DNA from: Steinernema hermaphroditum
Lineage: Eukaryota; Nematoda; Chromadorea; Rhabditida; Steinernematidae
Assembly: GCA_030435675.1 (NCBI GenBank)
Contig: CM059622.1
Location: 11,098,001-11,162,000, forward strand
Length of the DNA: 64,000 bases
Reading direction: 5' to 3'
The notes under the pieces are model-generated. The model had not been told where the DNA came from, did not search any database, and saw nothing but the letters and a program-made list of their open reading frames with translations. The translations under genes and the position numbers were made by a program. This document shows, in pieces, positions 19,463 through 43,197 of this stretch. Every line of letters starts with the position of its first letter. The stretch's first letter is position 1.

Positions 19463-19618
19463 TTATTTCTCGTCAAGAACGATTCCTTGTTTGAAGTTAA
19501 CGCAAAGTCCTCCAAGGATGCCGCCAAGGGGACCACACGGGTCGTCGTCGGCGGCAATGAAGTCGGAGACGAAGGCGACCAGGAGGAAGACGAAGAGGAC
19601 GAAGTGAAGGAACTGCAT
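19463..19618 (-). CDS. Small secreted Gly-loop peptide precursor, MQF type, copy 1
   Basis: Single exon, 51 residues. A signal peptide (MQFLHFVLFVFLLVAFVSDF, then IAA) is followed by DDD and the loop CGPLGGILGGLC, then VNFKQGIVLDEK. Two Cys enclose a ten-residue Gly/Leu/Ile segment, so a single disulfide ring is likely. Codon choice and length match copies at 40730 and 43033 almost residue for residue, including the loop and VNFKQ, while the last residues vary. A TATA-like CATAAAAGC and a CCAAT-containing box lie upstream. I do not know the family; a neuropeptide-like or defence peptide is inference only. Confidence 0.85.
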   Translation of the reverse strand: MQFLHFVLFVFLLVAFVSDFIAADDDPCGPLGGILGGLCVNFKQGIVLDEK

Positions 19619-19649
19619 GGCGATGGGTGATGGATCCTCGATTGTGGGA

Positions 19650-19727
19650 CAGCTTTTATGCAGAATTTGAATCCAGAACAGACGTAAATTCTACACACAT
19701 AATCCAATCAGAATGCACTTTTGAACA
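19650..19727 (-). promoter_or_regulatory. Conserved MQF-type promoter, copy 1
   Basis: CATAAAAGC lies about 35-45 bases before the ATG. Further up is a box reading CAAAAGTGCATTCTGATTGG on the minus strand, with the inverted CCAAT motif ATTGG. The same pair of elements precedes the MQF copies at 40730 and 43033. Confidence 0.7.
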
Positions 19728-20095
19728 ATGGGGATGAAAAATGCCTGTTCAGAATAATAATATGGGTGTACTCTCGAATTGTCGATCAGTTGCCGATCGC
19801 ATGACTGGATGATATCAGATTAATACCGGAAAATAATTGAGTAAAGGTACCACGCTTCCACGGTTCCTAGTGAACGCTCCGTACTATGGCGCCTCAAGGC
19901 CTGGTCATTTCTTAGATTTTCTACTAGTCTCTTGGTGGTGGAATCCCGAGCTTCTACGTTCTGCACGAAGTTCTGAATTCGCTGCGGTCCAGTGAGAAGT
20001 GTTCCATGCACTTCTGCTAGCATTTACTCTAGTAGCAGTTAATAGGTTGAGTAAAGTATTTATTGAATCAAATACAATTTCATATCTGCGTTATT

Positions 20096-20227
20096 TTATT
20101 TGTCGTTTGAGGCATCATTGCAGAGATAAGGAGGGATTAATCCGCCGAGAATACACATGGCATTTGATGAGCCGATGATGCAGACAACGACGAGGAGAAG
20201 AAGGAGGAGAGCGGCGAGGGTCCTCAT
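20096..20227 (-). CDS. Small secreted Gly-loop peptide precursor, MRT type, copy 1
   Basis: Single exon, 43 residues. A signal peptide of about 23 residues (MRTLAALLLLLLVVVCIIGS, then SNA) is identical to the copy at 42086. The mature part is MCILGGLIPPYLC followed by NDASNDK: one Cys-bracketed ring, shorter in Gly than its relatives, with an acidic tail. It lies 478 bases upstream of the MQF copy 1 gene on the same strand, forming the first MRT-MQF cassette. The target and function are unknown. Confidence 0.8.
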   Translation of the reverse strand: MRTLAALLLLLLVVVCIIGSSNAMCILGGLIPPYLCNDASNDK

Positions 20228-20325
20228 GGTGAAGTACAATCGGGAGACGGTTTGATCTGTCTCTCGCAAGACCGCCTTTATAGGATTGATCACAAACCAA
20301 AATAGGTCCAACATTTAAAAAGGTG
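20228..20325 (-). promoter_or_regulatory. Conserved MRT-type promoter, copy 1
   Basis: On the minus strand, CCTATAAAGGCGGTCTTGCG and then GAGAGACAGATCAAACCGTC lie within 60 bases of the ATG, with the TATA at 20277-20282. The promoter of the 42086 gene is nearly identical, with the TATA at the same distance from the start codon. Confidence 0.75.
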
Positions 20326-20864
20326 TAGCGACATTAACGTCTCACAAAAGAGCTTTTAAGAAGGACCGCCGTAAAAAGGGGCGAAACGGAGAGCAGCAAA
20401 TATGTTGTGTTCAGATTTCGTAACGAAGGACGAGTAGTCTTGACAGTTAAGCATATGGTGCAGAAATTATGTGGTGACAGTGCATGTTTAGATACCTAGA
20501 AGAAATTTGCACAGAAATTCACGGTTAGATTAGCTAAGAAGATCACCCGCTCTTTAGTAAATATAGAAGGAATTTCGCATCGAAGAATCGATGATGGGCA
20601 GAGTATGGCTACCTAGAGTGCATTCGCGCGATACTCTCTTTTCATCTTACTCTTACTCTTCACGACAATTTTATTTCCTGAAAATTCGCTAACGTGAAGA
20701 CTGGGAAAGGCTGAAGATCACTAGAACAAAACAGCCTTGTTTTGGGTTTGCTTTCCTCCTGTTCCATGATCACATCAAATGTAATCAACACATCTTATCG
20801 TCTCCCAAAAACAAGTCTCGCGTCTATTTAACTAGACCCTTAGTCATTATTCGTTCATCGGAAC
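20326..20864. other. Intergenic gap before P450 gene 2
   Basis: No gene is seen. The last 120 bases presumably hold the P450 promoter; no clear TATA box stands out. Confidence 0.4.
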
Positions 20865-22654
20865 ATGGTGTCAATATACGCTATTCTTGCTTTGGCCTTT
20901 GTAGTTTATCTTCTCTTCAAGAAGACGTTCCGGAAGGATCTACCACCAGGTTTTTCCCTAAAATAAGTCTAATCTCCAACTGCACATCTCAGGTCCTCCC
21001 GCGTTGCCACTTTTGGGCAATGCCCACCAATTCATCGTGGGTCGCCTTCAAGGCAAATCGAATGTCGACGTGATGAGAGAGTGGAAGGCGCTGTACGGAA
21101 GCGTCTACACAATGTGGTTGGGTCCTATGCCAGTGGTCATCGTTTGCGACTACAAGACGGCTATGGACGTTTTTGTGAGAAATGGAGAAGATCATGCAGG
21201 CAGAGCGAGCGCCTTTGTTTTCCAAAAAGCCAGAGGTTGGGGTGGCTGGGGTTTACTTGCTATATCATCCACCTCTAGAGAACTTGGGACTTGTGTTCAC
21301 AGACGGTCCCGCCTGGCAAGAACACCGCCGTTTTGCTCTCTTCACGCTTCGAAATTTCGGACTCGGCAGAAACATTATGCAGCAAAGAATTCTCGAAGAG
21401 ATCAAGTATCGCTTCGAGGCGCTGGACAGAGAAATCGACGATTCTAAACGCGGTTATGTCGAAATTAATCCTACCTACTTCCTTGATCTTCTTATTAGCT
21501 CAGTTATCAACAAATTGATTGCCGGATACCGTTATGATGACGTAATGTTAAAAAGTGGATTTTCAATTGTAACACGGAAGTTTAGAGCAATATCGAAGAG
21601 TTCAGAAACTTGAAGCACAGCCTCGATATAACCATGGACATTCTGACTCCACTGGACATGATTCTCTTCAACAATTACACCTACGACTTGCCGCTTTTCC
21701 GAAAACGTTGGGCTGCGACAACGAAGCCTCAGTTCGATATCATCAATTTGATGAGGAAACAGATCGCTGACAGGTATGGACATTGTATTAGGAGTTATTA
21801 TTGTACATATAATTTCAGGCGTCAGGCCATAGCTAGCGGCCAGCACCATCTGGACATGGAACTCGGAGGGGACGACTACATCGACGCCTTCTTCATCGAA
21901 ATGGAAAAGCGAAAACAAAATGGAGAAGACCTCGGCTTCTTCAAAGACGAGTACCTCGCCGCCAATGTAATGGACCTTTGGATTGCCGGAACCGAAACCA
22001 CGATTTCATCTCTGCTGTGGTGCTTCATCTACATCCTTAATGACGCTCCGATCCAGGAAAAACTGCGGGTGGAGTTCCACAGAATCACGAATGGAAATCG
22101 GGAAATCGAACTCACGGACAAGTCTTCCATGCCTTACACAAATGCTGTCATTACGGTATCATTCCACACCGGGGATCGCCTTCATTCACCTATTCAGGAA
22201 TCACTCCGTTGTGGAAATGTTCTCAACTTCAACCTACTCCACAGAACCACGTGTAAGACGGTCGTGGGAGACTACGTGATCCCAGAGAATGTGTCCATCA
22301 CTCCCCAAGTCAGTGTTATCATGACGGAAGAGAAGGAGTTTGCCAATCCAAACAAGGTAATCTCAAACGGCGCCGGACACAAACATCAGTACGTGCTTTT
22401 AGTTCGACCCGGACAGATACATCAAAAACAAGAACCTCGAAAAACAAATGATCCCGTTCGGAATCGGCAAGCGATCGTGCTTGGGGGAGCGTCTCGCAAG
22501 AGCTGAAATGTTCCTGATCCTGTCGAACTTTTTGCAACGATACAAGATATCTATCCCGGAGGGATGCGATCCGCCCTCAATGGAGCAGATCTCACTCGAA
22601 TCAATGATCAGAAGAGCGCGTCCTTATAAAATGAGAGTTGAGAAAGCGCATTAG
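20865..22654 (+). CDS. Cytochrome P450, nematode clan 2 (CYP33-like), gene 2
   Basis: Exons 20865-20949, 20993-21235, 21279-21541, 21586-21773, 21819-22155, 22198-22356, 22403-22654; 508 residues, the same as gene 1. It has the membrane anchor MVSIYAILALAFVVYLLF, hinge LPPGPPALP, I-helix LWIAGTETT, K-helix ExxR as ESLR, meander FDPDRY and haem loop FGIGKRSCLG. All first six exons have the same lengths and phases as gene 1. The last intron of gene 1, between haem loop and C-terminus, is absent here, so the last exon is fused. Substrate unknown. Confidence 0.95.
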
Positions 22655-23359
22655 AAACATTTCAGTGAAATAATGTATTTTATTGTACATAATAAATATT
22701 CGGTGGCGATCAAACTGGTCGTGCGCTCTCAGAAATGATTTGTGTGAGCGGTCGTTCTTGGCCATTGCTGGTCGCCTGAGAGATTCATTCATTGCCCCAG
22801 ATCCCAAAAGTCATGGAACCCCGGAGAGTCGTAGTTCCACGGTCCTCTTAAGAAGACCGCCACCACCGCGCCGCCACTAGAAGACGAAGAACCATTGAAA
22901 GTCTGAAGAGCATGTCGTCAACTGCTTCTATAATGAGATTCCACTGTGCCATACCGCAGAGACTCCTACGGATACGACTCTTCGCCTCCGGATACCCATA
23001 AAAACAGATGGGATCAGTGCGTTCGACTTCCACGAGATCACAAGATCCAAAAGCAGGATCTACGGCGTTTTCTATTTCGGATGATACCCTGTATCAAGTG
23101 TCGTCTTCCACATCAATTAGTGACATCAGTTCCGCATTCCCTATACATTTTTGCCCGCATTGAGTTGACTCTGAAATATCATCATAAAACCAGTTCTTCA
23201 ACTATGCCATGCGTCTTAACATCATAACACTCCACTGTGTAGTCTGTAACATTGGGGCGCTCTTATTTTTGGGAGCATGTCTGTGTTATCTATCCTTCAC
23301 GTTATGCCTGTACACAAATACAAATTACACATATCGAAAGGGACGACATTTCCTGGTGC
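22655..23359. other. Gap between P450 gene 2 and the Srsx receptor
   Basis: An AATAAA-like signal lies at about 22690, just after the P450 stop. From 22800 to 23010 is a diverged copy of the 12741-12960 module. No gene is recognised. Confidence 0.4.
22800..23010. repeat. Diverged copy of the 12741-12960 module
   Basis: It shares ordered blocks with 12741-12960, including GTAGTTCC, TTAAGAAGACC and a CCGGAGGCGAAG/CCGAAGGCGTCAA match on the minus strand. Reading frames are short in both copies. Confidence 0.45.
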
Positions 23360-24386
23360 TTATGTCGAAGGACGAACCGTCGATGATTTAGCCTCCGGTC
23401 GAGCTTCAAGACCAAACAGCTTTCGGAACTCCGCTCTGTAAAGAGTGCTTCTGAAGTAGTACACGAAGAAGGGTACTGCTAGATTGATATTGATGAATGT
23501 TCCAAGTGGAAGTTCGAGGGTCATGAAGGAGCGATGACTAGAATTCAATTCCTGTACACCTGTACATCTTTTCTCTTACTTTGGTGCCACGAGAAGAACG
23601 ACTGTGCATCCAAACATCGTCAGCAGCCAGCCGAAGAGATACATGACAATCATCGTGCTCAGAGATCTGTTGATCTTTTGGTAATCAGATGGTGACGCTA
23701 AATGAGATTTGATCTCGTGAAAGGTCTCGAAACGAATACTCACCGTTTTTGAGGAGTTTAGAAAGTGAGTAGTATATTCCAACGATTCCAAAGTTTATAA
23801 TAGATCCAGAGGCAAACCACACATTCTCGGTCACACCTGTTACAGCTTGAGCTATCATGCACAGGGTCTTCTCTTCGGTAAGACTTATATAGGAGAGAAC
23901 TTTAAAGACTGTACAGTATACCAGGCAAACTAGCAGAATGCCTCCGATATAGAGAGGTTTGTTCAGCATTTTATAGAACTGTGGCCGCTTTGCCGCGAAC
24001 ACTCTGTCCAGAGCGATGAAGAACATCAGGAGAGCGGAGAAGTCCAAGGCTGATATGAAGACGAAGTTAATCTTCCAGCAGGTGCGAAAGGTGACCAACT
24101 TTTCAGCGAAGGCGAAGTAGATGAACGGGATATGGGACACCTGCATGATGATGTCGGACACAGCTTGGAAGCCTATGAGAATATTGCAGGGACAGCGCAG
24201 CTGTTTTGACCTAAAAGAGTGAAGTAATTGCTAGCACATCGTTCGTGCTCCGTGTTACTTGATAGTGACCAAAAAGATGAGGAAGTTTCCAGTGCAGCCA
24301 ACGATGGATATGGCAATGAAGATGCTCGACATTACTTTTCCGACGAGAAAGAACGTCGAAAGAGTCACTGCAGGGGTAGCCAACAT
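23360..24386 (-). CDS. Seven-helix chemoreceptor, Srsx type
   Basis: Exons on the minus strand: 24259-24386, 23744-24210, 23580-23697, 23360-23537; 296 residues. TM1 reads FIAISIVGCTGNFLIFLVTI. It is followed by KQLRCPCNILIGFQAVSDII, the Srsx signature (short loop, CN-x-LI, then a D in TM2). TM3 ends with ALDRVF, the receptor's DRY-like position. Later segments include CLVYCTVFKVLSYIS, SIINFGIVGIYY, MIVMYLFGWLLTMFG and ININLAVPFFVYYFRSTLYR. Family role: G-protein-coupled chemosensory receptor in sensory neurons. The ligand is unknown. It sits between P450 genes 2 and 3, with a decayed relative to its right on the same strand. Confidence 0.85.
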
Positions 24387-24940
24387 CTTAAATATATACA
24401 ACGATAACGATTGAATACGAAGACAACGTTTCCTTCTTCCCGTTGTTCATTATTTCGCCGCCTAGAAAACACCTGGTTTTACGGATTTTATCATTTAATA
24501 ACGCAATGTTTTCAAAACCTTCCCTTTGAACAAATACCTAAACCAACGGCCAAAACAAACTTCTCAGGACTAGTCCAGTCAAGAAGCGAAGGAGCTCATT
24601 GGAATTATTCGATATCTCAAGTGTGCTTTATCACCTAATCACGGCTATCTATCAACAGCGAAAGAAGTCTCAACGATCACTCAACATCACCTGTAAGAAA
24701 AAATTTATGAATTTTCAACTTAATGAAAGTCTGTATTGGGTCCAAATGTTGATGAATTTTAAAAAGCTGCCGCGATACCTCTTTGAATTGTCATTTAGCC
24801 AATCCCGTTGAAATGCTAAATGTGTTTTGAGTTTGTGGTATTCGACTAATCCGCGAAGATTTCGTTGCCTTGTGATGACTTGAAATGACGTTGCCTTGAA
24901 ACCATTCAACCCTGCTTCACGTAGTGATTGACAAGTAAAT
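24387..24940. other. Gap between the Srsx gene and its pseudogene relative
   Basis: This is AT-rich, with no convincing exon on either strand. The first ~100 bases presumably hold the receptor promoter. Confidence 0.35.
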
Positions 24941-25158
24941 TCAAGTCAGCTCATCAACACCGATAGGTTTACGTTGGTTCAGCACATCGGCAACGATCTG
25001 AGGGACGTATATCCCATGCAGATGAGCAGTTGAGGTAGCATCCGTATTTTTGTAACTTCGAAAAGTTTTCATGATTCGGTAGAGAGTAATACGGGAAAGC
25101 AGCGGCGAGGTTGACATTAGCGAACGTGCCAAGTGGCATTTCCACGGCCACAAATGTG
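24941..25158 (-). pseudogene. Decayed 3' exon of an Srsx-type receptor
   Basis: The minus strand reads FVAVEMPLGTFANVNLAAAF then PYY, clearly matching FMTLELPLGTFININLAVPF in the neighbouring receptor. A frameshift then moves to TLYRIMKTFRSYKN, matching TLYRAEFRKLF. No intact upstream exons were found, although short coding-like stretches lie at 25190-25310. A tandem duplicate of the receptor gene that has lost function is the simplest reading. Confidence 0.65.
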
Positions 25159-25664
25159 CACTTACTAAAGGGAGTGCTGAACTTGGATCACAATCTTACC
25201 ACGTTGGTGAGATTCTGATTGAGATTTTGGCTGTGAATTGTGCCGGCTGTGCAGTATTTGTATGTCTGCGCAAAGTGTCTATCGCCTCCGGTAAAGATAA
25301 ACGGCAAAATCACTGTTTTTGCACGCGCAGCGGCTTGTCTGTCTAGATAATTGTGCAAGCCGATAATCCCTCGTGACGAACATTACCCAGCGAACAGTCG
25401 AGTCACATGATACATTATCCTGGAAAGCCTTCAAGCGATGGTCTTTGTGATATTGAGTGGTACAAGCAAATCAAAAGCGACATAAAATTCTGAGCACAAT
25501 TCTGATCTTTTTGTGACCAAAATACTCTTATCACTTCTGACGGTTATCGCTGTTGACAAGGGTGTGATCTTCGCGTGTTTAGAGCTGTGCGTCTAAAGTG
25601 TCCACCGGTGAGCGCTTTCATAAAAGACGCCATTTGTGAGCGCTGATTTGGGGAGCTAACGGCC
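25159..25664. other. Gap before P450 gene 3
   Basis: On the minus strand at about 25190-25310 an open stretch ends on a GTAAG donor and might be another relic exon of the decayed receptor. The rest presumably holds the P450 promoter; nothing specific is identified. Confidence 0.3.
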
Positions 25665-27497
25665 ATGGCACTCATCTATCTGTTCTTCGCAATTGCTGCT
25701 ATTCTCTTTTATGTATCCAAAAAATTGGGCAAAGGGCTTCCGCCAGGTGCGGTTACCGTTTTATGGGTTGGACTATTTGGCTCATTTCAGGACCAACCCC
25801 GATTCCACTGCTCGGAAATGCACTTCAGTTCATCTATGGCGGACTGCAGGGCAAGACCACAGTTGATGTCATGAGAGAATGGACGAAGAAGTACGGCAAA
25901 GTCTATACAGTGTGGATGGGTCCCATGCCCATTGTCCTCATTTGCGATTATCAAATTACCATGGACGCCTTTGTGAAAAACGGGGAGGCACATGCCGGTA
26001 GAACTCAGGATTTTGTGTTTACTGAAACTCGTGAAGGTAGATCCAAGGTTAGAGGTTGATTTGATACAGTTCTTGTGTAGGCTACAACGGAGTGGTCTTC
26101 AACGACGGAATCGAGTGGCAAGAGCAGCGCCGGTTCTCCCTTCACACCCTTCGGAACTTCGGGGTTGGTCGCAACATCATGCAGGCGAAGATCCTCGAAG
26201 AGGCTCAGCATCGATTTGACGTGTTGGATGCGCAGATCGAAGCGAATAATGGCAGAGTGGTCATGAATCCGTCTCCTTTCTTCGACTTGATGATAGGTTC
26301 TATTGTGAACAAACTACTTGCTGGCTATCGATACGACGAAGTAGGTGGATTGCTGTTCTCCAGATAAGATAGTACTCCCGTTGCTAGAAGAACATGGACG
26401 AGTTCTTCCGCTTCAAGCATAGCATCGACGCGGCTTTCGGAAATTTCACGATGTTCGACACGGCTGTCCTCAATAAGTTCACTTACAATCTGCCTCTTTT
26501 CAAGCAAAGATGGGATTTTCTCTGCAAACCCATGCTCGAAGTGAGAAGCTTGATGAAAAGACAAATTAAGGAGAGGTAAATGAGAAGCTATCAGACATGT
26601 CAATGAGCTGCTTAGGGTGGATGCTGTTGCCAGTGGGAAGCATGCTCTTGATCTCGACAGCGAGGGAGAAGACTACATCGAAGCCTATTTGATAGAAATG
26701 GAGAAACGAAAACAGAGTGGCAAAATGGGCTCTTTCCACCTCGAGTACCTCGCCTCAAATCTCATGGACTTGTGGATGGCTGGCATGGAGACCACCATTT
26801 CTACTCTCCTCTGGTCGTTTGTTTTCTTCGTTAATCACCCCGAAACCCAAGAGAAGGTCCGCGATGAAGTGCTGTCCGTCACGAAAGGTAACCGAGACGT
26901 CGGGCTGGCCGATAAACCCTCTCTTCCTTACACCAACGCTGTTATTACGGTACGTTCCTTTACGCTCGTTGTCCGACTATAGATTTTATCGATATTAGGA
27001 AGTTCTACGCTGCGGAAATGTGCTTAACTTCAATCTCCTTCACAGAACGACAACCGAAACCATCGTAGGAGACTATTTCCTTCCCAAAGGAACCATCATC
27101 ACATCTCAGCAAAGCGTCATCCTCACTTGGGAAGAACAGTTCAAGGAAGCTCAGAAGGTAACCGAAATTCAACAATCCAATGGAAAGAGATGTTCTTTAG
27201 TTCAACCCAGAACGATACCTTGACGATAACAAGCTGGAAAAACAAGTAATTTCCTTCGGTGTTGGCAAGCGGGCCTGTCTTGGAGAAAGTTTGGCGAGGG
27301 CTGAGCTATTTTTGGTAGAAGCTGCGCGGCTCCTTCATGGCAATAATGCGGAATTTCAGATCATATCCAACTTCGTGCAAAGGTACAAGATCTCCCCAGC
27401 TGACGGCGTTACGCCTCCCTCCATGGAGCAGCTGAATGGCGCCTCGATGACGAAGAGGGTGATTCCATTCGAAGTAGCAGTTGAGAAGGTGATTTAG
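25665..27497 (+). CDS. Cytochrome P450, nematode clan 2 (CYP33-like), gene 3
   Basis: Exons 25665-25746, 25791-26036, 26081-26340, 26388-26575, 26616-26949, 26999-27157, 27201-27314, 27360-27497; 506 residues. It has the anchor MALIYLFFAIAAILFYV, hinge GLPPGPTPIP, I-helix LWMAGMETT (Met replaces the usual Thr of AGTETT), K-helix EVLR, meander FNPERY and haem loop FGVGKRACLG. The ancestral eight-exon layout is retained. Like the other members it has ICDY followed by DAFVKNGEAHAGR. Substrate unknown; an ER monooxygenase by family. Confidence 0.95.
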
Positions 27498-27619
27498 AGC
27501 TGAATGCGGGGATATGTATAATGTGTACAGTGATGATAGCTAATATAATCAACACGTTCGCTTTTCTACAAACCACAAGGCGCAAAAATGTCAGAATCAA
27601 GCCAAAATAGTGTTGCACT

Positions 27620-29577
27620 TCAGTGAATTCTCTCAACCTTGACCGTAAAAGGTCTTGTTCTTTTCAAGGTGCCATCGAGCGCGATCTGTTGCAGTGAAGG
27701 AAGATGGCTCCCTTCTGGGACTGATAACTTGTAGTTTTGCATGAAGTTGGTCAGTATCTAGAGGGTCAGGGTTTTTAATCTCGGACCACCGCTTACCAAG
27801 AAGATTTCTGCTCTGGCTAGACTCTCCCCCAAACAGGCTCGTTTTCCTACTCCAAATGGAATCACTTGTTGTTCGAGTTTCTTGTTCTCGGACGAAAGAT
27901 ACCGCTCAGGGTCAAACTAAAGCCAGGTTACGATAGAACTGGAGAAACAGTCACCTACCGTATCAGGATTGGGGAACTGTTTGTCATCATTCACGATGGC
28001 GCTCAACTGGGCGGTGAGGGTGGTTCCTTTGGGGACCAAGTAGTCGCCCACTATGGTGTCGCATGTGGTTTCGTGAAAGAGGTTGATGTTGAGAATGCAT
28101 GAGCAGCGAAGAATCTCCGTGATAACGGCGTTGACATAAGGCGCTAAGGTCTTGTCCGTCAGCTCGACGTTTCGGTTTCCTTTTGTGATCGAAAAGACTT
28201 CCTTTCTGATCTTCTCCGCAACCTCTGGATTGTGCAAAAGGAATGTGAAGCCCCACAACATGACAGATATTGTGGTGTCCGTTCCAGCTATCCAGAGGTC
28301 AAGAAGATTGGCCAGTAGGTTGTCGTCAGTAAACGATCCTGGGTCATCTCCATTTTGTTTGCGTTTATCGGCCTCGATCAGATAAGCGTCGATGTAGTCG
28401 TCTCCGCCGTTGTGGACGTCGAGAATCCGCCGTCCAGCTGCTATGTCGGCTTTTCTGAAAATCGTTTTTAGAAAAGGGTAGGCCTTCTACGGTTAAGATG
28501 GAAAGCATTCAGAAGTAGTCATTTTTGTGCTCTCGAGACGACTCGAGCGGCCGATTCCCTTTCGCAGAAAGGTCTAAAGGCGATCGGTCGCTGTATAATG
28601 TCTAGATGCGGGCACTGTGTTCCTTTTTCAAAGTTGAGAAGCTAATTTACGATCGCTTCCTCAAATCAGACCTCTCCTGCACTTGTCTAACCAGCACACT
28701 TCGAATCTCCTCGTTCGGCTTGACCGCCTTAGCCCATCTTTGTTTGAACACAGGCAATTGATAGGTTCTCTCTGAAAAGAGGATGAAGTCTACGGGCGTG
28801 AATATGTCCAACACGGCATTAAAACTTCGTTTCATCTTGAGGAACTCGTCCATGTTGCTCTGTAAATCTCAAATGCCCATGTACGGTATCCTCGGTTCAC
28901 CTCATCGTAGCGGTATCCAGCTACCAATCTGTTGATCACCGATCCGATGAGAAGTTCGAAAAACGGTGCGGGGTTTATGACTGCAGCTTTGCTCTCGCTG
29001 TGGGATATCTCCTTGTCCAAAAGATCGAATCGGAAGGCGATCTCGTCGAGTATGATGTGCTGCATGAGGTTCCTCCCGACTCCGAAGTTCCTCAAAGTGT
29101 ACAGCGTGAATCTTTTCTGTTCCATCCATCCGGGCCCATCCGAGAATATGAGTCCGTGGTTGCCTAAACACCCCCGTTCAGCCGGCGAGAAACGTCTCTC
29201 CGACTACCGCCACGGATTTTCCTCATGGCGAAGGAGTCGTGCCGTCCAGCGTGCGCATCTCCGTTCTTCACAAAGGCGTCGATGGTGGTTTGGTAGTCGC
29301 AGATGAGGACTGCCGGCAAAGGACCTAGCCAGATGGTGTAGACATTACCGTATTTCTTCTTCCACTCAATTGTCAGGTCGACATTCGATTTGCCTCTCAG
29401 CTTTGCAATGAAACAGTGTGGAAGATTTCCGAGGAGGGGGATCGGCGGGGGACCTAGGACTTTTTGTCAAGCGGGTGGTCGGAAGTGCACACCTGGTGGA
29501 AGACGTCTCTTTTGTTTTTCGAAGAGGAAGAAGAGAAATAAGAGAACTACTACGATAAGAAAATAAATTGGCGACAT
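27620..29577 (-). CDS. Cytochrome P450, nematode clan 2 (CYP33-like), gene 4
   Basis: Exons on the minus strand: 29493-29577, 29208-29453, 28901-29163, 28672-28859, 27959-28454, 27797-27916, 27620-27757; 511 residues. It has the anchor MSPIYFLIVVVLLFLFFLF, hinge LPPGPPPIP, I-helix LWIAGTDTT, K-helix EILR, meander FDPERY and haem loop FGVGKRACLG. The intron just before ExxR has been lost, so exon 5 (496 nt) equals the sum of exons 5 and 6 in its relatives. The donor of exon 4 is GTCTGA, weaker than usual. It is tail to tail with gene 3, with only 122 bases between stop codons. Confidence 0.95.
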
Positions 29578-34322: not shown

Positions 34323-35392
34323 ATGCAGAGGGAGTTGGTACTTGTCGAGTTCTCTGTCGTCATCACGCTAAGCATAATAACTCTAATTCTTCTGGTCGTT
34401 ATTTTCCGAAAGAAGACACTGACGTCAACATGGAAAACTTGCTCAGCCCTCTGCTTCTTCTTTGGTTCCAATGCCTTCGTCTCTCTTCTAGGCATACTCT
34501 TCGCCATTCAGTGGATGCTCTTCGCCAGCAGCATAATTGAAAATGTGGCCGGGAATACAGTACTTCTCGTGGCTGTCGGTCACACCTTCATTCTATCTCA
34601 GCATATGAATCACTGCTCGACCATTGGACTCTTTGCCCAGAGGGTCTACTGTCTGCTCTATCCAACGAAATCGGCGACTAAATTTAACTACACTGTTTTC
34701 ACTATGTTACTCTTTGTTTTCATCGGCGGCTCAACTGGCTTGACCTACGCGAGGATAAGAAGTGTTACGGTTGATGGTAGCCCTGTCCCGGACGGTACGT
34801 GAACGTCCAGGAACGACGCTCTATTCCTGTGTTCCAGGCTGCTATTCTTTTAACTGTATGTCGTCAAGTAGCGCCTCAGTTCGAACGCTGTCGAACATCT
34901 TCGGAATAGGTCTGACGGCGGCTTCCATGCTGCTTGGCTCACTGATGTTATGCCTCCTGCGAAAGTATAAAAAGAGAAAATCAACGGCGCTGGACAGAAA
35001 GGTAAAAAGATGTTACAGGAGTCGAGGGCTTAGATAAAGGAGAAAGGAAGCTGTTGGTAGTGTGTGTAGAAAACGCTTGAGTAACCATTGTACATCCCAC
35101 TTTACAAACGCTTTAATGTTCAGAACAACAGCTTCGCCCTCTACGTCTTCTATGCACAGTTTGTGTTCGAAACGTTTCCGATGTTGTTCGATATTGGTTT
35201 TTCAGTAACTGTAAGTGGTCACAATTCTTTCGATTTTCTAATTGTCTTCAGGCCAATATCAATCTGGGACAGTACATCGGACCATTTGGCTTGGTTGGCG
35301 ATGCCATTGACAATGCGGTGCAGGTGTTTGTCTACTTGTTCTTAATTAGAAGTCGAAAGAAATCGGTGATTGCGGCAAATCAAATGACATAA
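34323..35392 (+). CDS. Seven-helix receptor, nematode chemoreceptor-like
   Basis: Exons 34323-34794, 34838-35001, 35124-35210, 35252-35392; 287 residues. Hydrophobic helices start almost at residue 7 (VEFSVVITLSIITLILLVVI). Next come CSALCFFFGSNAFVSLLGIL, a third segment ending in FAQRVYCLLYPTKSATKFNY (a DRY-like position followed by a short cytosolic loop) and VFTMLLFVFIGGSTGL. The later exons carry FGIGLTAASMLLGSLMLCLL, FALYVFYAQFVFETFPMLF and VFVYLFLIRSRKK. The pattern is that of nematode serpentine receptors, but I cannot assign the family with confidence. It lies in the same accessory stretch as the Srsx gene. Confidence 0.65.
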
Positions 35393-35808
35393 ATGCGATA
35401 AATAGTGGTAAAATTAAAATGAACTAACTTGTTTATCGACAGTGTAGTACTTGAAAATACCCTTTATACCCTTCACAAAGGTCACATTAAGGAATTTTTA
35501 GTTATGTAATTGTGCAATTATCCCGTAGGAAGGATATGAGAGATAGAAAAATTCACAGTGTGACGCCCGTTGTGGGATTGGACACAAAAGGACAGGTCTA
35601 ATTCATGTTTATTGATGTGGCTCCATGACCACGGGCGTATGACGCCATTAAACCTGTCCGAAACGAAAGGCTTCGGTGATGTTCACATTGTTTTCCCTTG
35701 GTTTCACAAGTTGCAAATTTCACATATCGCTTCACACAGTAACCAATGCAACGTTAGTTACCTTCCTACATTTAGCTTCTATCCGGAAAGAACTACATTT
35801 TTTAGAAA
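35393..35808. other. Gap before the PIAS gene, with trans-splice-like acceptor
   Basis: No SAP-domain exon or other gene is visible. CATTTTTTAG ends at 35805, three bases before the PIAS start codon, and looks like a spliced-leader acceptor. Confidence 0.45.
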
Positions 35809-37509
35809 ATGTTCACTAATAGCAGCTATCAATTTGCAAACATAGGCCAGGGAAACACGGTCCGCACCCAGAACCTCTGTATCGGAAAACTTCCCTTCTA
35901 CGATGCCAAAGACACAATCCTGGAATTGAAGGAATTGCCGGCAGCCGGTCCTGGACTGCAGAAGACTCCATCGAAGTTACAGTTCAAATTTGACGTGCAT
36001 CGGAGCATCCTGAATGGCTTGGCTCGAAGTGAATCGGCGCCACTCCCTCGCATGGAACTCCAACTTCGGTTCTTCTCTGCCGGTAACGCCGCAGTGGAAC
36101 AGTTCGATTCGTTTCCGCCAAATTGTTCGGTGCATATCGATGGAAAAGCAGTTACACTACCTGTAGGCCCAATTAATTCTAAATCTAATTTTATTAGCAC
36201 TCATCTTCCAGAACGTGATCCCAACGAACATACCGAAGACTGAGGCAAAACGGCCTTCGCTTCCTGTCAATGTGACCAGCTACGTCAATCTCGCTTTCAC
36301 CCAGCACAGTCTTACTGTAGAGTGGAGCGGTGATAATCGTTTTTGGGCTGTGGCCATATATCACGTCCAGCATGTGAATTCTGCATTTTTATTCAAGAGA
36401 TTAGCCGATCGACGATATATGCGACCCCAAAGCGTTACAAAGAAAACGATCATCCAACGTCTAAATGGCGACGACGACGATGGAATTTCGATGGACTCCA
36501 TGAAGGTCTCTCTTCTCTGTCCTGTAGGTTCCTTCCTTCAGTCGATACTTACTCAGATGTTGGTCATTTCAGCTGAGTCGTACGAGAATGATCATGCCTG
36601 CGAAAGGTGCCAACTGCAGCCACCTTCAATGTTTCGACCTGAATTCCTATCTAATGATGAACGAGCGAAGGTCGACGTGGAAATGCCCTATTTGCGATCA
36701 AACGTCAACCGCGTACAATTTGGTCAGAGATCAGTAAGTGCAATATTCCGATCCTTTGCTTTACTTCCTTTTAGATACTTTATTGATATACTGCACAAAA
36801 CGGACTCCTCGACCATCGAAGTCGAGCTTCTTAGAGATGGATCGTGGCGGGTGGTCGAAGTGCGGGTGGAAACATTGTCCGACGAGGAAAATTGCGACGT
36901 AATGACGTGCAAGAAGATGTCGTTCCTTTCGAAGCCTCATAATGTCCCTAAAGCGCTTTCCAGCACAACCGAAAACGCACAGTTTGATGTGATCACTTTG
37001 GACAGTGACGACGAATACGATGATGATGAAATGATAGCGCCATATGGAGCTCAGACGCACTCAAATCGGTTAGTCAACTAATTTGTAGAGCATTATCTTA
37101 AAGAAATCTTTTAAGGACTGTTTATCCGACAACGTCTCAAAATCGTGACATTCCTCTGATTTGTTTGGACGACAGCGATGACGGCCACTATCAGCTTTCT
37201 ACGTCAACTTCTACGAATATGGCAAGTGGAATGCAAGGCAACTTCGGTGGAACACCCAGCTGGATTCCAATGAATCAAAAGACGGGACCAGCATATCCGT
37301 CGATGAATTCCTCTTTTGTGGATCAAAATTCCTCATTCTACAGCGCTCACCCTTGGGGCGTCGAAGTCAATTTACATGCAACGGCTACAACAGCAGTACA
37401 CCTCCGGATGTCATACGACAACAATATGGATATAACTTCCATGGAAACTATTGAGGCACGCCAGGAACCGACTTTCGTTCGCCACAACGGATCTCACAGA
37501 CCACTTTGA
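35809..37509 (+). CDS. gei-17: PIAS-type SUMO E3 ligase (PINIT + SP-RING)
   Basis: Promotes transfer of SUMO from UBC9 to nuclear targets, by family. Exons 35809-36162, 36212-36523, 36573-36733, 36775-37068, 37116-37509; 504 residues. The PINIT domain (residues about 20-225) contains LPVNVTSYVNLAF in place of PINIT, and ends VSLLCP. The SP-RING follows directly: LSRTRMIMPAKGANCSHLQC, FDLNSYLMMNERRSTWKCPI, CDQT, with the zinc-binding C-x-H, C and C-x2-C. Downstream are an acidic SUMO-interacting motif VITLDSDDEYDDDE and a second candidate, IPLICLDDSDD. No N-terminal SAP domain is seen, and the ATG sits behind a trans-splice-like acceptor. The symbol denotes the C. elegans PIAS gene it appears orthologous to. 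AATAAA at 37611-37616. Confidence 0.93.
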
Positions 37510-37775
37510 CTTATTTGCTGAACTCCATAAACAACAATGTTCAGCAAAATTCGTACAGCAGTCCAAGGTAGTCTTCGCTCATTATGAATTGGAATGGATT
37601 TGAGTTGAGAAATAAATATAAATTAAGCTGGTCAGTTTAAGTAAGAGTTCCTGCCTCCTTGTTATACAGCAGCCAGCAGCCGGCTTTAGATCCCTGTAAC
37701 TGTGTGTAACAGCCCATAACAACAACAATTTATGGCCAACAAATGCATGAAACAGATGGTCAAACTTCGGACGTT

Positions 37776-38296
37776 TCAGAACCTAGACCACCCGGCAATG
37801 CGAAGCCACAAACACTGGAGAAGATCCGTCACCTGAGGCCAGAAATGACGAAGAAGAGCCCAAAACAGCAAGAGACCCAGAAGACACGCAAGGATCGTAT
37901 TCTGTTCGCCGACGGTTAGCCGGATCGTCACCAGATGGGAAGAAGAAGGAAGATAATCGGCAGCCAAGTGGGAGCAATCGATGCCTCCGAAAGGAGCCAA
38001 GCACTCACAAAAGTGGAAACTGTCCGTCTCATGGCAGATTCCATTATTGTGACACGGCTGGGCGTCGCACATCTGCAAGAAATAACAGTTGTTTCGGAAG
38101 ATGGAAGGAAACCCACACTTGGACTTCTCGAAGTATAAGAAGTAAAACAAGAAGACGATAAGCAGTACCGGCAGTGTGAAAGTCCCCCGAAATAAGGAAG
38201 ACTAGCTCGCTCGAGGAAGCTCGACACTGGCAGATCAAACCGTTCAGTGAGGCGACACACCCAAACAATGAGGATGAGAACCAACAACGAACCCAT
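37776..38296 (-). CDS. Small EGF-like, single-pass membrane protein
   Basis: The 3' exon is clear on the minus strand: MCDAQPCHNNGICHETDSFH then FCECLAPFGGIDC, a six-Cys EGF module, followed by a C-terminal membrane helix (TILACLLGLLLFWALL) and a short basic tail ending at 37776. Upstream, an ATG at 38296 opens MGSLLVLILIVWVC, a good signal peptide, in another frame. A GT donor after DLP joined to the TTGCAG acceptor before the EGF exon (38079) would restore phase. That intron is proposed, not proven. Function unknown; cell-surface or extracellular by architecture. Confidence 0.6.
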
Positions 38297-38939
38297 GCGA
38301 GCGACGACACATCTGGACCAGATCAGACATCTCAGGGAAGAACAAAGCTCGCCCTCGCTGATAATAATCTCCTGGTGTCGTTTTCTAAGCACTTGGCACA
38401 TCTTACGTCGTGTTTCGATTAGACGAATACGAGATGAGTGAGAACACAAAAAAGCACCGTATTACAATAATTACTCTAAAAACCGTGTACTGTAATTTCA
38501 TGCGTGCTCGCATGGTATTATGCAAAGTTGTTATACCGGGTTCAGCTCAGATGGGGATGTGCGAATAGAAAGGTAACTTAGGTCGTTTGAAAACATGGCT
38601 GATGTTTTCACACATGCCCCAGCCTATTGGTGCCAGTCCTTGGATATTAGCTTCCGATATTCGTGCTTATTCTGTCTGTATGTGCTCCAACCGTTGCGTG
38701 TGGTATTCCATTTCTGGCTGTGACGACAGCCTGTCTCGTGTTCAGGTCGGATTGATGTGGGATGGGATCGATCGTATTTTCAACACTAGCGTGAATCTGC
38801 GGATCTGGAAACGAACAGACCACTGCAATCGTCATATAATAGTTACTGTTCGATTAATGTTTTCACACATAAGATAACGCATGTGCCAAACATATGGATT
38901 TGATTCAGTTTACCTTGTTTTCGCGCGCGGAGATCAGGA
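38297..38939. other. Intergenic region
   Basis: Divergent promoters of the EGF-TM gene and the small membrane pair would lie here. An open frame at 38587-38877 has no recognisable similarity and is not called. Confidence 0.35.
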
Positions 38940-39302
38940 ATGGATGATTCTCGTGCTAATTGTGCTCTCATAAAGTCTAATGAAGATACGCTGTTCTTGA
39001 AGTCCGCCGCTAAGTTCCATAAGAACTTTGAGCTTGCTCTTCGTGAAGTAAAAAAATGTATGTATGTTATCTTGTGTCTTACGCCGGTTACGGTCATGGC
39101 CTTAGAGGTATTTAGTTACCGCTATAATGTTTTTAAAATGATGTTTTACACTATTTGGATTCGATTCGTCTTGGACTACTACCGCAATAAGAAACCAGCG
39201 GAATCAACTTTTGTGAACTCTGCTTTAACGTCTATCGTAATGTGTATCGTCATAATAGTGCCTTTGTTCCTTGCAGTCGAGTTTGTCTCTGGTTTCTTTT
39301 GA
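38940..39302 (+). CDS. Small membrane protein, FELAL family, first gene of an operon-like pair
   Basis: 120 residues, single exon. FLKSAAKFHKNFELALREVK is followed by three hydrophobic segments (MYVILCLTPVTVMAL, FYTIWIRFVLDYY and SIVMCIVIIVPLFLAV). It aligns along its length with the next protein (LDYYRNKKPAESTF against IQDYYGSTTPMEFSL) and, in its first half, with that at 33290. No known family recognised. An AATAAA at 39350-39355 precedes the next gene's acceptor by about 40 bases. Confidence 0.75.
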   Translation: MDDSRANCALIKSNEDTLFLKSAAKFHKNFELALREVKKCMYVILCLTPVTVMALEVFSYRYNVFKMMFYTIWIRFVLDYYRNKKPAESTFVNSALTSIVMCIVIIVPLFLAVEFVSGFF

Positions 39303-39390
39303 ATTTGTGCATTTGACTTATGATCGCGCTTTCATTGTTGTCACACTGTAATAAAGCATTGCTCCTGTCGGATTTCTTTCGCTTAAGGTA

Positions 39391-39400
39391 CGAATTTCAG
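39391..39400 (+). promoter_or_regulatory. Probable trans-splice acceptor between two tandem genes
   Basis: CGAATTTCAG lies 11 bases before the downstream ATG and about 98 bases after the upstream stop codon, with AATAAA in between. This spacing is typical of nematode operons whose downstream genes receive SL2-type leaders. Confidence 0.6.
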
Positions 39401-39411
39401 CAGATTAACAT

Positions 39412-39750
39412 ATGCTGAAAATGGATCTTCAACGCCAGTTCCTCGCCGCCGGCTCCAAACTAATCAACAACTTCTCTCAGGCAGTTCAGGACAGTTTCCT
39501 CTGTGCCCTACTTCATGTGTCGGTGTTTGTGGTGTTGACCGCGGCTGAAGTTATCTGCCTTTGTCGCGGTGTACACACGAGCTTCTTCTTGTACCAGTTC
39601 GGCTTACACAACATAATTCAGGACTACTACGGTAGCACGACTCCAATGGAATTCAGTCTCTGGAAGTGCGTCAACAACCGCGTTTGTTTAGTACTGGCGT
39701 GTCTACCTCTCTTTGATCTCTGCAGATTGCTCAATTACCTGCTTGCGTAG
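39412..39750 (+). CDS. Small membrane protein, FELAL family, second gene of the pair
   Basis: 112 residues, single exon. FLAAGSKLINNFSQAVQDSF leads into three hydrophobic segments (ALLHVSVFVVLTAAEVICL, FFLYQFGLHNII and CLVLACLPLFDLCRLL). Paralogous to the upstream protein by position-by-position similarity. It starts 109 bases after the upstream stop, behind a strong acceptor. Function unknown. Confidence 0.75.
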   Translation: MLKMDLQRQFLAAGSKLINNFSQAVQDSFLCALLHVSVFVVLTAAEVICLCRGVHTSFFLYQFGLHNIIQDYYGSTTPMEFSLWKCVNNRVCLVLACLPLFDLCRLLNYLLA

Positions 39751-40114
39751 AACAACTGTGATGTTTGTTTGAGTTGTATAAATAAATTTATGCAGTGTGC
39801 ACAAATTATTAATTTTGGGCCTCATTGATTAACGAATTAACTGATGGCGATGCTTTTCGTGTTTTGAACAGCAGTAAACTCCGGGACAATCATCACTTTG
39901 ATGCAACTAACAGGTAACCACAAGGTCGCAAACACTTTTTATCGTATGTTGATGTTTGAACCTAATCATCCGCCTGCAAACGCCTTCTCGTCCAAGATAC
40001 CTTTCGCAACAACCTTGATCGCGGAAACATAAACACCTTTTTAGGCTCCCTCATGACACAGTTCTCCCCTTAAAACGCGGCGTTCGCTTTGACCAACTAT
40101 TGCCTATTGACATC
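39751..40114. other. Intergenic gap
   Basis: AATAAA at about 39780 closes the small-membrane pair. No other gene is seen. Confidence 0.4.
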
Positions 40115-40558
40115 ATGAGTGCTCTGAAAGTTCTCTTCTTTGGATGTTTATTTGCTACGCAAGCTGTGGCTCTCATCCCCGACTCCGATCAACACGAACT
40201 TGTCCTCAGCGTTCCTAGTAGGCTTGTACCTCTTCACATCTTCTTAGATACGGGGCATTAAGGTAAAGACTCCGAACCCATTTCCTACGGTTCTCTATGC
40301 AATGAACTCTCGATTCTTCCGTTGATCCGTGTCGCCCTGGACAACTATTCTGACAACCTGGACATGGCGGCGAGATACATTGCAGATCATCTTCAGTATA
40401 AGGGATATTTCCTGGTCCACAGTCAGAAGTTGGATTGTCTCAGTCAGGGAAAGGAGTGGCAGTCGGTGACCAACGGCGATCTCTTTACAGGACGAAGCAC
40501 ATCGGGATGCTATTTTCACGACAACAGAATTTACGTGCTGATTGTCAAATATCAGTGA
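40115..40558 (+). CDS. Secreted Cys-containing protein, possibly ground-like
   Basis: Exons 40115-40217 and 40263-40558; 132 residues. The first exon is a signal peptide (MSALKVLFFGCLFATQAVAL). The mature part has few Cys: YGSLCNELSILPLIRVAL, then KLDCLSQGKEW and TSGCYFHDNRIYVLIVKY. The order (early Cys before a helix, mid Cys, late Cys followed by aromatic residues) loosely resembles the nematode ground-like domain. The match is weak and the Cys count low. AATAAA at about 40601. Confidence 0.6.
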
Positions 40559-40729
40559 TCACCAACCCTTATTATTCATGAGCTATTGCGAGAAACTCCA
40601 ATAAATGAGCCAATTACAAGAAATTTCTCTTGCGATCTTCACTACGACTACCGTGTTCTTATTCACAACAAAAAGTAGGGCATCATGATATTTACATTTA
40701 ACATTTTATTCTCAACTTCGAACACTGCT
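40559..40729. other. Convergent gap
   Basis: 3' flanks of the secreted protein (+) and MQF copy 2 (-). Nothing else is seen. Confidence 0.4.
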
Positions 40730-40891
40730 TCAACGGTGGCTCTCTTCAGCATGAACGATTCCTTGTTTGAAGTTAACGCAAAGTCCTCCAAGAATGCCGC
40801 CAAGAGGACCGCACGGGTCGTCGTCGGCGGCAATGAAGTCTGAGACGAAGGCGACCAGGAAGACGAAGAGGACGAAGTGGAAGAACTGCAT
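40730..40891 (-). CDS. Small secreted Gly-loop peptide precursor, MQF type, copy 2
   Basis: Single exon, 53 residues. Signal peptide MQFFHFVLFVFLVAFVSDFI, then AADDDP, loop CGPLGGILGGLC, and VNFKQGIVHAEESHR. Against copy 1 one Leu is missing from the signal core and the tail has changed, while the loop and VNFKQGIV are identical. The CATAAAAG-type TATA and the CCAAT-containing box are both present upstream (box at 40988-41015). The MRT gene expected upstream on this strand survives only as a relic at 41325-41360. Confidence 0.85.
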   Translation of the reverse strand: MQFFHFVLFVFLVAFVSDFIAADDDPCGPLGGILGGLCVNFKQGIVHAEESHR

Positions 40892-41324
40892 GGCGGTGGG
40901 TGATGGATCCTCGATGATGGGACTACTTTTATGCAGACTCAGAATCGAGAACAGACATGAATCCAGTTCTACACATGGAAGTCATCATAATCCAATCAGA
41001 ATGCACTTTTGAACAAAAAGTGAAAACTGATCTCTTTAGAATGATAATATTGAAGTACTTTCGAATTTTTGATCAAAAGTTGACGATCGCATGATTAGAT
41101 GATGTAGGTTTAATGCCGAAAAGAGCAGTAACCGTAACAGTACTACGTTCCGATTGTTACGTTTCTGGTGGGCGCTCGGTTGCCAACGATGCTAAGACGC
41201 GTCATGGACTAACCAGTTATCAGTTATATGCCCAATCTGCATTCCTGGCCAGCCGTTGTCACAGCGTATTGTGAATTCACCAGCGCTTTCTGTTGTCCGA
41301 TTAGATGCCTCGCCGGTGGAATCC

Positions 41325-41360
41325 TCAATGCCTATGGAGGGGAGCTGCGAGGGACCTCAT
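41325..41360 (-). pseudogene. Relic of an MRT-type peptide gene
   Basis: On the minus strand an MRT-like start survives (MRSLAAPLHRH, then stop after 11 codons), behind a recognisable MRT promoter containing GAGAGACAGATCAAAACGTC. The TATA position reads CTATAGAA instead of CTATAAA. It lies 470 bases upstream of MQF copy 2, the spacing seen in cassette 1. Confidence 0.7.
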
Positions 41361-41649
41361 GGTGAATTACTGTCGCGAGACGTTTTGATCTGTCTCTCGC
41401 AAGACCACTTCTATAGCATTCTCTAGAAAGGAACCAGAACAGATGCGAAATTTGAAAAAGCTAAATCAGAAAGTAAAACTACAACGGCGCTCTGTACAAC
41501 CGGACCCGTTTGTATCTCCATGTGTTTTTACAAGGGAGTGGCCGCATTGGACAACTCAAAGAGTGATCGATCTCAGACATCGGACGAGGATAACGTACTT
41601 TTACGTAGCAGTTTTAGTCAATCTAGAATATGCAGAATTATAAGGCAGA

Positions 41650-41716
41650 ACAAACGTGAATCCAGTTCTACACATGGAAGTCATCATGATCCAATCAGAA
41701 TGCACTTTTAAACAAA
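41650..41716 (-). repeat. Orphan MQF-type promoter fragment
   Basis: It carries GAATCCAGTTCTACACATGG and then CCAATCAGAATGCACTTTTA, matching the region upstream of MQF copy 2. No peptide-coding sequence follows on the minus strand, so it is a fragment of a further lost copy. Confidence 0.65.
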
Positions 41717-42000
41717 AAGTGAGAAGGAATGACAATTCGATAGCGCGGTCTAATTGTGGATAAAAAATCGCTGTTGTTGTCGCTCCACCGCACTTAGTCC
41801 TTATTTTGTCTGCTGTCTGAAATCGAACACTCCTCGAATGATTGAATGCGATTGCTGTGGACAAACGACATAGGACCCTCCCTTGTCCACAAGCTGGTCG
41901 CTTTTCACTACGCTTTACCGTCGTGATTTTTGCTCTAAAAAGTGTGATTTGATTCATCGCCGTTGTACTTTCCTTCCTTATTTAGCTTTTTCAAATGTCG

Positions 42001-42085
42001 GACCTATTTTGGTTCCATGGTCATCAAACCTATAAAAGCGGTCTTACGAGAGACAGATCAAACCGTCTCCCGATTGTACTTCACC
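42001..42085 (+). promoter_or_regulatory. Conserved MRT-type promoter, copy 2
   Basis: GACCTATTTTGGTTCCATGG is followed by CCTATAAAAGCGGTCTTACG and GAGAGACAGATCAAACCGTC, with the TATA at 42031-42037, 50-55 bases before the ATG. Matches the promoter at 20228-20325 in order and spacing. Confidence 0.75.
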
Positions 42086-42274
42086 ATGAGGACCCTCGCC
42101 GCTCTCCTCCTTCTTCTCCTCGTCGTTGTCTGCATCATCGGCTCATCAAATGCCGCCTGTGGCCCGCTGGGAAGCATAGCCGGCGGAGTTCCATGCCGCC
42201 GATACGTCGAAGCCGTCAGCGAACGAAGGTCCGCTTGTAATCTTGGAGGCATCCTTGGAGGAGTTCCTTGCTGA
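42086..42274 (+). CDS. Two-loop secreted peptide precursor, MRT type, copy 2
   Basis: Single exon, 62 residues. The signal peptide (MRTLAALLLLLLVVVCIIGS, then SNA) equals copy 1. The mature region contains two Cys-bracketed loops, ACGPLGSIAGGVPC and SACNLGGILGGVPC, separated by RRYVEAVSERR. The dibasic RR pairs on both sides of the spacer resemble prohormone-convertase sites, so two separate ring peptides could be released; this is inference. The second loop ends at the stop codon. It heads the third cassette, with MQF copy 3 at 43033 on the same strand. Confidence 0.85.
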   Translation: MRTLAALLLLLLVVVCIIGSSNAACGPLGSIAGGVPCRRYVEAVSERRSACNLGGILGGVPC

Positions 42275-42915
42275 TCTCCTTTTGAAGTTGCCGTTGAAGC
42301 TGTCGTTGAAACAACTCCAACTATTGCACATCATTTGAAATATGTTTTATATCTCATTCAAAATAAATGACCACGACAAATTGAAGCTATAACCAGGTTT
42401 ATATAAAATAGACTTGTAGAGAAGTCCTTGCCGAGAGCATCCAAGCGTGAGACCAGTCGAAAAGTCGAAAACAATAGTACTATTGTTGCACAGAGTGGTA
42501 TTCAAATGTAAATTCAAGCCGTTCTATACGAACACAGAACGAATACAGTTGCTATTTGCACTCCTTGTCCGTCTAACATTTGAACTCTAATACACACTTC
42601 TACTAGTCTCGACTCTGCATCAGGGTGCTGGTTCAATACTGTTGCCTTTTTCTCTTCAGTGTCTAGCGGTAGAGATATAGTGGTGTGGAACAGCTTTTAA
42701 ATACACGAAACTGGCAAACCTATTCTGCGCCATTTTTTGTTTCCATACATTCTGCCATTCAACCTATTTTTCCTCGATTGCACCGAACCTTACAATTTTC
42801 GGATCATGGGGGTCTTCAAATGCAATACGGCCAAAATAGGTTACAATCCACTTTTGATCAACAATTCGAAAGTACTTCCATATTGTCGTTCTAAAGAGAT
42901 CAGTTTTCACTTTTT
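42275..42915. other. Spacer inside peptide cassette 3
   Basis: AATAAA at about 42362 follows the MRT gene. No further coding sequence is convincing. Confidence 0.45.
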
Positions 42916-43032
42916 GTTCAAAAGTGCATTCTGATTGGATTATGATGTCTTCCATGTGTAGAACTGGTTACACGTCTATTCTCGATTCTGCATAAAAGCA
43001 GTCCCATGATCGACGATCCATCATCCACCGCC
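42916..43032 (+). promoter_or_regulatory. Conserved MQF-type promoter, copy 3
   Basis: CAAAAGTGCATTCTGATTGG lies at about 42920, and CATAAAAGC at 42991-42999 is about 35-40 bases before the ATG. The same order and spacing are found in the other two MQF copies. Confidence 0.75.
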
Positions 43033-43197
43033 ATGCAGTGCCTCCACTTCGTCCTCTTCGTCTTCCTCCTGGTCGCCTTCGTCTCCGACTTCATTGCCGC
43101 CGACGACGACCCGTGTGGTCCTCTTGGCGGCATTCTTGGAGGACTTTGCGTTAACTTCAAGCAAGCAATCGTTCCTACAGAAGTCCGACACCGTTGA
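43033..43197 (+). CDS. Small secreted Gly-loop peptide precursor, MQF type, copy 3
   Basis: Single exon, 54 residues. Signal peptide MQCLHFVLFVFLLVAFVSDF, then IAADDDP, loop CGPLGGILGGLC, and VNFKQAIVPTEVRHR. The loop is identical to copies 1 and 2, including most codons, while the tail diverges. The extra Cys in the signal core would be removed on cleavage. It lies 758 bases downstream of the MRT gene at 42086. Confidence 0.85.
   Translation: MQCLHFVLFVFLLVAFVSDFIAADDDPCGPLGGILGGLCVNFKQAIVPTEVRHR

Follow-up and report, generated by a model that had tools for sequence, protein, structure and literature searches.

The 64,000-nucleotide stretch analysed here (the window; positions 11098001-11162000 of contig CM059622.1, below C2, in assembly GCA_030435675.1 of Steinernema hermaphroditum) carries five short open reading frames (ORFs) of 51, 43, 53, 62 and 54 amino acids, counted from the family methionine, which probably make up, together with further copies nearby, a small, locally duplicated and undescribed nematode peptide family of a common kind. 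They lie where the original prediction had placed five intact genes for precursors of 43-62 residues (Table 1); those at 20096, 42086 and 43033 are nested in longer ATG-initiated ORFs (72, 85 and 63 amino acids), and their family start was set by alignment. Two subtypes are distinguished, MQF (Q1-Q6, of which Q4-Q6 are outside the window) and MRT (R1 and R2, with a remnant, R3). Copies were sought in the animal's own genome only (90.6 Mb, 60 contigs), and for large families such counts are minima. Protein and DNA searches returned six full MQF copies, on one contig and within 0.6 Mb, and two full MRT copies; the MRT promoter-signal block occurs at three genome sites, R3 being the third, and the MQF promoter at seven, one of them without a gene. 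C2 carries all copies and promoter blocks, in the interval 11.117-11.705 Mb, with seven of the eight genes inside about 102 kb and the eighth about 0.49 Mb beyond.

Table 1. Positions of the peptide genes, their flanking blocks and neighbouring features (window positions unless a contig is given).
Feature	Position	Strand	Remarks
Q1, MQF gene	19463..19618	-	51 amino acids, single loop CGPLGGILGGLC
Q1 upstream block	19619..19838	-	common to all six MQF genes; CATAAA at -42
R1, MRT gene	20096..20227	-	43 amino acids, single loop CILGGLIPPYLC
R1 MRT promoter and signal-peptide block	20159..20321	-	TATAAA at -55; R2 copy 93% identical over the block
Q2, MQF gene	40730..40891	-	53 amino acids
Q2 upstream block	40892..41111	-	
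R3, MRT remnant	41336..41420	-	85 nt; covers the promoter and about 25 nt of the ORF start at 86% identity; the sequence beyond is MRT-unrelated
MQF promoter remnant	41629..41718	-	without a gene
R2 MRT promoter and signal-peptide block	41988..42154	+	
R2, MRT gene	42086..42274	+	62 amino acids, loops CGPLGSIAGGVPC and CNLGGILGGVPC with RRYVEAVSERR between
Q3 upstream block	42813..43032	+	
Q3, MQF gene	43033..43197	+	54 amino acids
Q4-Q6, MQF genes outside the window	C2:11194340-11194492, 11219480-11219632, 11704539-11704685 (as matched)	-, +, +	from the own-genome search
Cytochrome P450 genes	13296-14928, 20962-22503, 25781-27271, 27920-29460, 62682-64000	both	
Retroelement integrase ORF	18065-18688	-	H2C2 zinc finger and rve; ~0.8 kb from Q1

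All eight precursors are 43-62 amino acids long and open with a highly hydrophobic stretch (the best mean Kyte-Doolittle value over 12 residues being 3.05-3.91), followed by small residues, judged by composition, ahead of a signal cut that was assumed after residue 23 (22 in Q2). The predicted mature peptides, of 20-39 residues, have their ring cysteines 10 residues apart, or 11 in the first ring of R2. The MQF ring, of 12 residues, is neutral, hydrophobic and rich in Gly, Leu and Ile, and its loop CGPLGGILGGLC, previously noted as identical in three copies, is so in all three MQF genes of the window and in all six of the genome. The LGG-I-LGG core that had been ascribed to the whole family holds for most members, with the exception of the 20096 gene, which has CILGGLIPPYLC, and of the first ring of the 42086 gene, which has LGSIAGG. 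The net charge of the predicted mature peptide is -1 to -3 in seven precursors and +2 in R2; the same seven (the six MQF and R1) contain no dibasic site, and in R2 RR occurs twice between the two rings, at residues 38 and 47. Hydrophobic N-termini and the pattern of conservation together support the proposed secreted, loop-constrained family with two signal-peptide subtypes.

A degenerate DNA pattern of the core, drawn up with the family codons in mind, matched 10 genome sites, eight of them in family genes (two in R2), and a separate loop pattern matched seven, namely the six MQF loops and an ORF at C2:4252083 that looks transporter-like by eye; the controls gave no match (for the core pattern, its reversed form). 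The other two sites of the core pattern, C1:2974344 and C2:12433305, are in Gly-rich ORFs that lack a cysteine ring. The former is Gly/Ala-rich, with GGLLGGIGG-type repeats besides LGGILGG, and a signal-like ATG start just upstream of it is, by eye, cut off from its frame by a stop; the latter is short, its last residues are SLGGILGGLDL, and a signal-like start precedes it, also by eye.

The coding status of the MQF ORFs is supported by the way in which the copies differ from each other. The identity among the six copies (mean pairwise, a gap being scored as a mismatch) amounts to 0.24-0.34 upstream of position -220, 0.73-0.84 from -220 to the ATG and 0.90-0.95 over codons 1-47, and it falls to 0.49 over the next 59 nt, which still include the last few codons, and to 0.33-0.37 further 3'. 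The sole indel within these codons is of 3 nt; upstream indels are of many lengths. Variable sites in the 47 codons number 24, distributed as 8, 2 and 14 over codon positions 1, 2 and 3, and a minimum of 23 changes, 12 synonymous and 11 nonsynonymous, accounts for them (P 0.003-0.017). In the loop, whose four variable sites are all synonymous, the minimum is four synonymous changes and no nonsynonymous one (P 0.007-0.010 under neutrality, with a transition bias of 1-5). The ratio of nonsynonymous to synonymous rates (dN/dS), which the original prediction had suggested as a check, is in line with this: pooled over pairs of MQF copies, the mature parts of R1 and R2 being too poorly alignable, its value is 0.25 for the 47 codons as a whole and falls to 0 for the loop, where 27 synonymous and no nonsynonymous pairwise differences were counted among pairs that are not independent. 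Synonymous-biased change, identity that peaks over the ORF and an indel that keeps the frame thus point to translated sequences.

The flanking signals support short transcription units, and the family is probably expressed. CATAAA is found at -42 from the ATG in all six MQF genes and TATAAA at -55 in both MRT genes; AATAAA follows within 90 nt of the stop in seven of the eight, Q3 being the one that lacks it. A TTTCAG acceptor is absent from the 120 nt before the ATG in all eight genes; the nematode SL1 leader (22 nt) has 333 genome sites at one mismatch or fewer, and its reversed control none. An intron starting at the signal border of the MRT genes, where the R1/R2 alignment ends, was considered; it is made less likely by the frame, which continues in R2 into a matching Cys ring. 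Shared regulation of MRT and MQF was rejected, being unsupported by common k-mers or motifs: the eight 230-nt promoters have no 9- or 10-mer in common, even at one mismatch, and the three 8-mers that they all share compare with 1 to 23 in 20 controls. Of single motifs, TGATAA is present in three of the eight promoters, a forkhead pattern in four, and CANNTG, searched without a control and too short and common to weigh, in all.

The arrangement of the two subtypes is less regular than had been proposed. The MRT gene was said to precede the MQF gene at all three loci of the window; an intact MRT does so at two of them, and at the third only the 85-nt remnant R3 is present, the MRT-to-MQF spacings being 477, 758 and, to the remnant, about 444 nt. 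Across all six MQF loci, the order MRT-then-MQF involves an intact MRT at two and a remnant at one, and at Q4, Q5 and Q6 the MRT promoter-plus-ORF blocks found no match in the 4 kb upstream, even at an expectation value (E) of 1. Since the third MRT is truncated and half of the MQF loci have no MRT partner within 4 kb upstream, an MRT-MQF cassette is not general, and the idea of a fixed unit is right in part only. The divergent orientation of the 40730 gene with respect to the 42086 and 43033 genes was correctly noted; Q2, the remnants, R2 and Q3 are all contained in an imperfect inverted duplication (40727-43200), whose arms are 80-93% complementary.

Outside the window, DNA about 515-616 nt upstream of Q5 matches DNA just past R3, upstream of Q2 (114 nt, 70%). 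A decayed MRT upstream of Q5 was considered and rejected, as the match starts at the end of the MRT part and the MRT blocks have no counterpart there; it looks like shared MQF-upstream DNA. Because the match begins a few bases past the MRT end, the MRT front in R3 appears to abut older MQF-upstream DNA. Part of the MQF promoter is also present a second time at Q5, some 280-440 nt ahead of the ATG.

The two intact MRT genes are similar in front and dissimilar behind. From the TATA box to codon 23, the end of the signal peptide, 124 of the 126 nt are the same in R1 and R2; past codon 23, an ungapped comparison gives 4, 6, 1 and 1 matches of 12 in the next four windows, and a gapped alignment is also lost there, at what is presumed to be the signal-cleavage border. 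This pattern could have arisen either by gene conversion, keeping the fronts alike over old, diverged mature parts, or by recombination of one front with different mature parts. The mature part of R2 matches that of MQF, in that none of 5000 shuffles reaches the real alignment score. The near-identical DNA of the R2 and MQF loops was rejected as proof of recent common descent, because LGGILGG is encoded by nearly the same codons in two unrelated ORFs, C1:2974344 and C2:12433305.

The peptide genes lie within an array of cytochrome P450 genes, which occupy both strands, as recognised by a Pfam scan that covered 20 of the 51 listed ORFs of at least 130 codons; further P450 matches are found at C2:11078.8-11088.9 kb. 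ORFs matching the PINIT and Serine_rich (protein interaction) domains adjoin the peptide genes (window 35806-37078 and 44162-45217), and the retroelement reported beside one of the loci is indeed there, in the form of an integrase ORF (Table 1).

The explanation that we favour, with a probability of about 40%, is that these are minigenes driven from a TATA box and encoding secreted peptides with a single ring, exocrine and probably related to defence, with a function similar to that of the FIP/FIPR peptides of Caenorhabditis elegans. The TATA-type promoter (CATAAA or TATAAA) would drive an mRNA, apparently without introns, that encodes a hydrophobic signal peptide, whose removal would release a secreted peptide of 20-39 residues; two cysteines 10-11 residues apart would then close, by a disulphide, a small, neutral ring rich in Gly, Leu and Ile, with two such rings in the 62-residue member. 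The oxidised ring would be the constrained and active part, the end of the tail being freer to vary, and the product may act as a secretion of gut, gland or skin, with local gene duplication raising both its dose and its variety. A defence or exocrine function is favoured because of the small size, the likely secretion, the clustering and the local birth and decay of copies. As to the roles named in the original prediction (neuropeptide, antimicrobial, exocrine), the first is the least supported, given that seven of the eight precursors have no dibasic site, and the classic cationic form of the second does not describe seven mature peptides with a negative net charge.

Several observations weigh against this explanation. 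With a net charge of -1 to -3, the mature MQF peptides differ from typical cationic antimicrobials in being acidic, and their loop is strictly conserved, unlike the nlp-29 cluster, for which positive selection is reported in the available part of PMC2453101. The contrast in constraint between the loop and the rest of the MQF precursor is not significant on change counts alone (Fisher P 0.056). R1 has a mature part whose likeness to that of R2 is only marginal, its score being reached by 157 of 5000 shuffles, and whose likeness to that of MQF is not significant (594 of 5000). Finally, frame +2 is likewise free of stops in all six MQF copies, and for this reason an open frame is weak evidence of coding.

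This second open frame is what might be expected if the ORFs were not genes at all and had opened by chance in a local DNA repeat, either a promoter-like element or a segmental duplication, and the conservation of non-coding DNA upstream (0.73-0.84 from -220 to the ATG) and the existence of partial promoter copies point in the same direction; we consider this very improbable, against the synonymous bias, the peak of identity over the ORF and the frame-keeping indel, and with copies found on one contig within 0.6 Mb, unlike those of a dispersed mobile element. The main rival concerns the function of the peptides: the ring might be the ligand of a receptor, in which case convertases would cut at the RR pairs flanking the R2 spacer and set free two peptides, each with one ring and about 14 residues long. 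It holds this place because the ring is invariant in all six MQF copies, as expected of a receptor ligand, and the RR pairs of R2 stand exactly between its rings. We nevertheless regard signalling as unlikely, the other seven precursors having no site for such processing, and local growth in copy number accompanied by remnants would be more usual in defence or exocrine families. A neutral, Gly/Leu-rich ring under strong constraint could instead serve for assembly, rather than killing or signalling, in a structural or conditioning peptide of the cuticle, the egg or the gut lining, and the genome does encode larger Gly/Leu-rich LGGILGG ORFs without a cysteine ring, with signal-like starts by eye; these are, however, unrelated to the family beyond the motif, and mature peptides of only 20-39 residues with one or two rings and no long repeats fit such a role poorly, so that it too seems an unlikely one.

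That the peptides are effectors acting on another organism is decidedly unlikely. A signal that is conserved ahead of a mature part that is not, as in R1 and R2, is described also for toxins and other bioactive peptides (PMC6245896, in its accessible text), but the mature part of MQF is conserved and not hypervariable. A different proposal, quite unlikely in our opinion, is that of a new class of secreted single-ring peptides in which the MQF ring stays invariant and, beside it, an MRT line keeps its promoter and signal and has its mature segment swapped or remade at the cleavage border; the remnant R3, in which an MRT front part abuts MQF-upstream DNA, bears on it, and the locus would then generate, on a small scale, new ring peptides for secretion. 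Coming back to the secreted, probably defence-related minigenes, their expression would add to the nematode secretome an apparently undescribed small ring peptide whose active part is already marked by selection, and the MRT gene pair would illustrate how new secreted peptides may arise, with the promoter and the signal kept and the mature part changed.

That no described family was recognised for the peptides agrees with the Pfam-A, PDB sequence and motif-string literature searches, within their limited scopes. The three precursors of the eight that were scanned (Q1, R1 and R2) gave no Pfam-A match above the cut-off, the best being Lectin_N at E 0.013 over the signal peptide only, and a PDB sequence search with Q1 only had an uncoupling protein as its best match, at E 0.13. 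In the literature, the string LGGILGG was found in a bacterial Gly-rich protein (PMC11941926) and CGPLGG in a paper on hydrogels, going by the accessible part of each source; searches by topic returned no such family in titles or beginnings of abstracts, in a coverage that excludes most subscription papers and bioRxiv preprints. A large protein database returned no match to an MQF query, not even the protein itself, and for an R2 query only the window's own protein; a 189-residue P450 piece of the window was also unmatched at E 0.001. Genes this short are easily missed, and because the window's own proteins (MQF and the P450 piece) were mostly not returned, absence from this database says nothing on other nematodes.

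Among known peptide systems, cationic antimicrobial peptides differ in charge from seven of the eight mature peptides, which are net negative (-1 to -3). Disulphide-ring neuropeptides have one ring closed by two cysteines, and the likeness to them lies in this single ring, the difference in the seven precursors without dibasic sites. The precursors of frog-skin antimicrobial peptides, one of the groups in which, according to the available text of PMC6245896, the signal is conserved and the mature part diverges, are alike in this respect (R1 versus R2) and in the short distance to the poly(A) site; the pattern occurs here in one pair only, the mature MQF loop being unchanged, and the analogy is one of architecture, not of kinship. 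The C. elegans NLP-29 cluster and the caenacins (CNC) are alike as small, clustered and duplicated nematode peptides (PMC2453101, PMC3409374; accessible parts). The same parts describe them with multiple GGY/GGW triplets, of which there are none in the eight mature sequences, and report positive selection for the nlp-29 cluster, in contrast to the purifying selection on the MQF loop; membership in NLP-29/CNC therefore fails, as judged by sequence, on the triplets and, for MQF, on the pattern of selection. The FIP and FIPR peptides of C. elegans are defined, in the accessible part of PMC3409374, by a length below 100 amino acids, a signal peptide, a simple primary structure and a homologue nearby or clustered, induction by fungal infection marking the FIP only. 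Three of these features are found here, with 43-62 amino acids in all eight precursors, a simple Gly/Leu/Ile ring with a short tail (by inspection) and clustered homologues, and the signal peptide is likely, given the hydrophobic N-terminus; compared by class description and not filed as a member, the family thus appears to have in FIP/FIPR its nearest kind.

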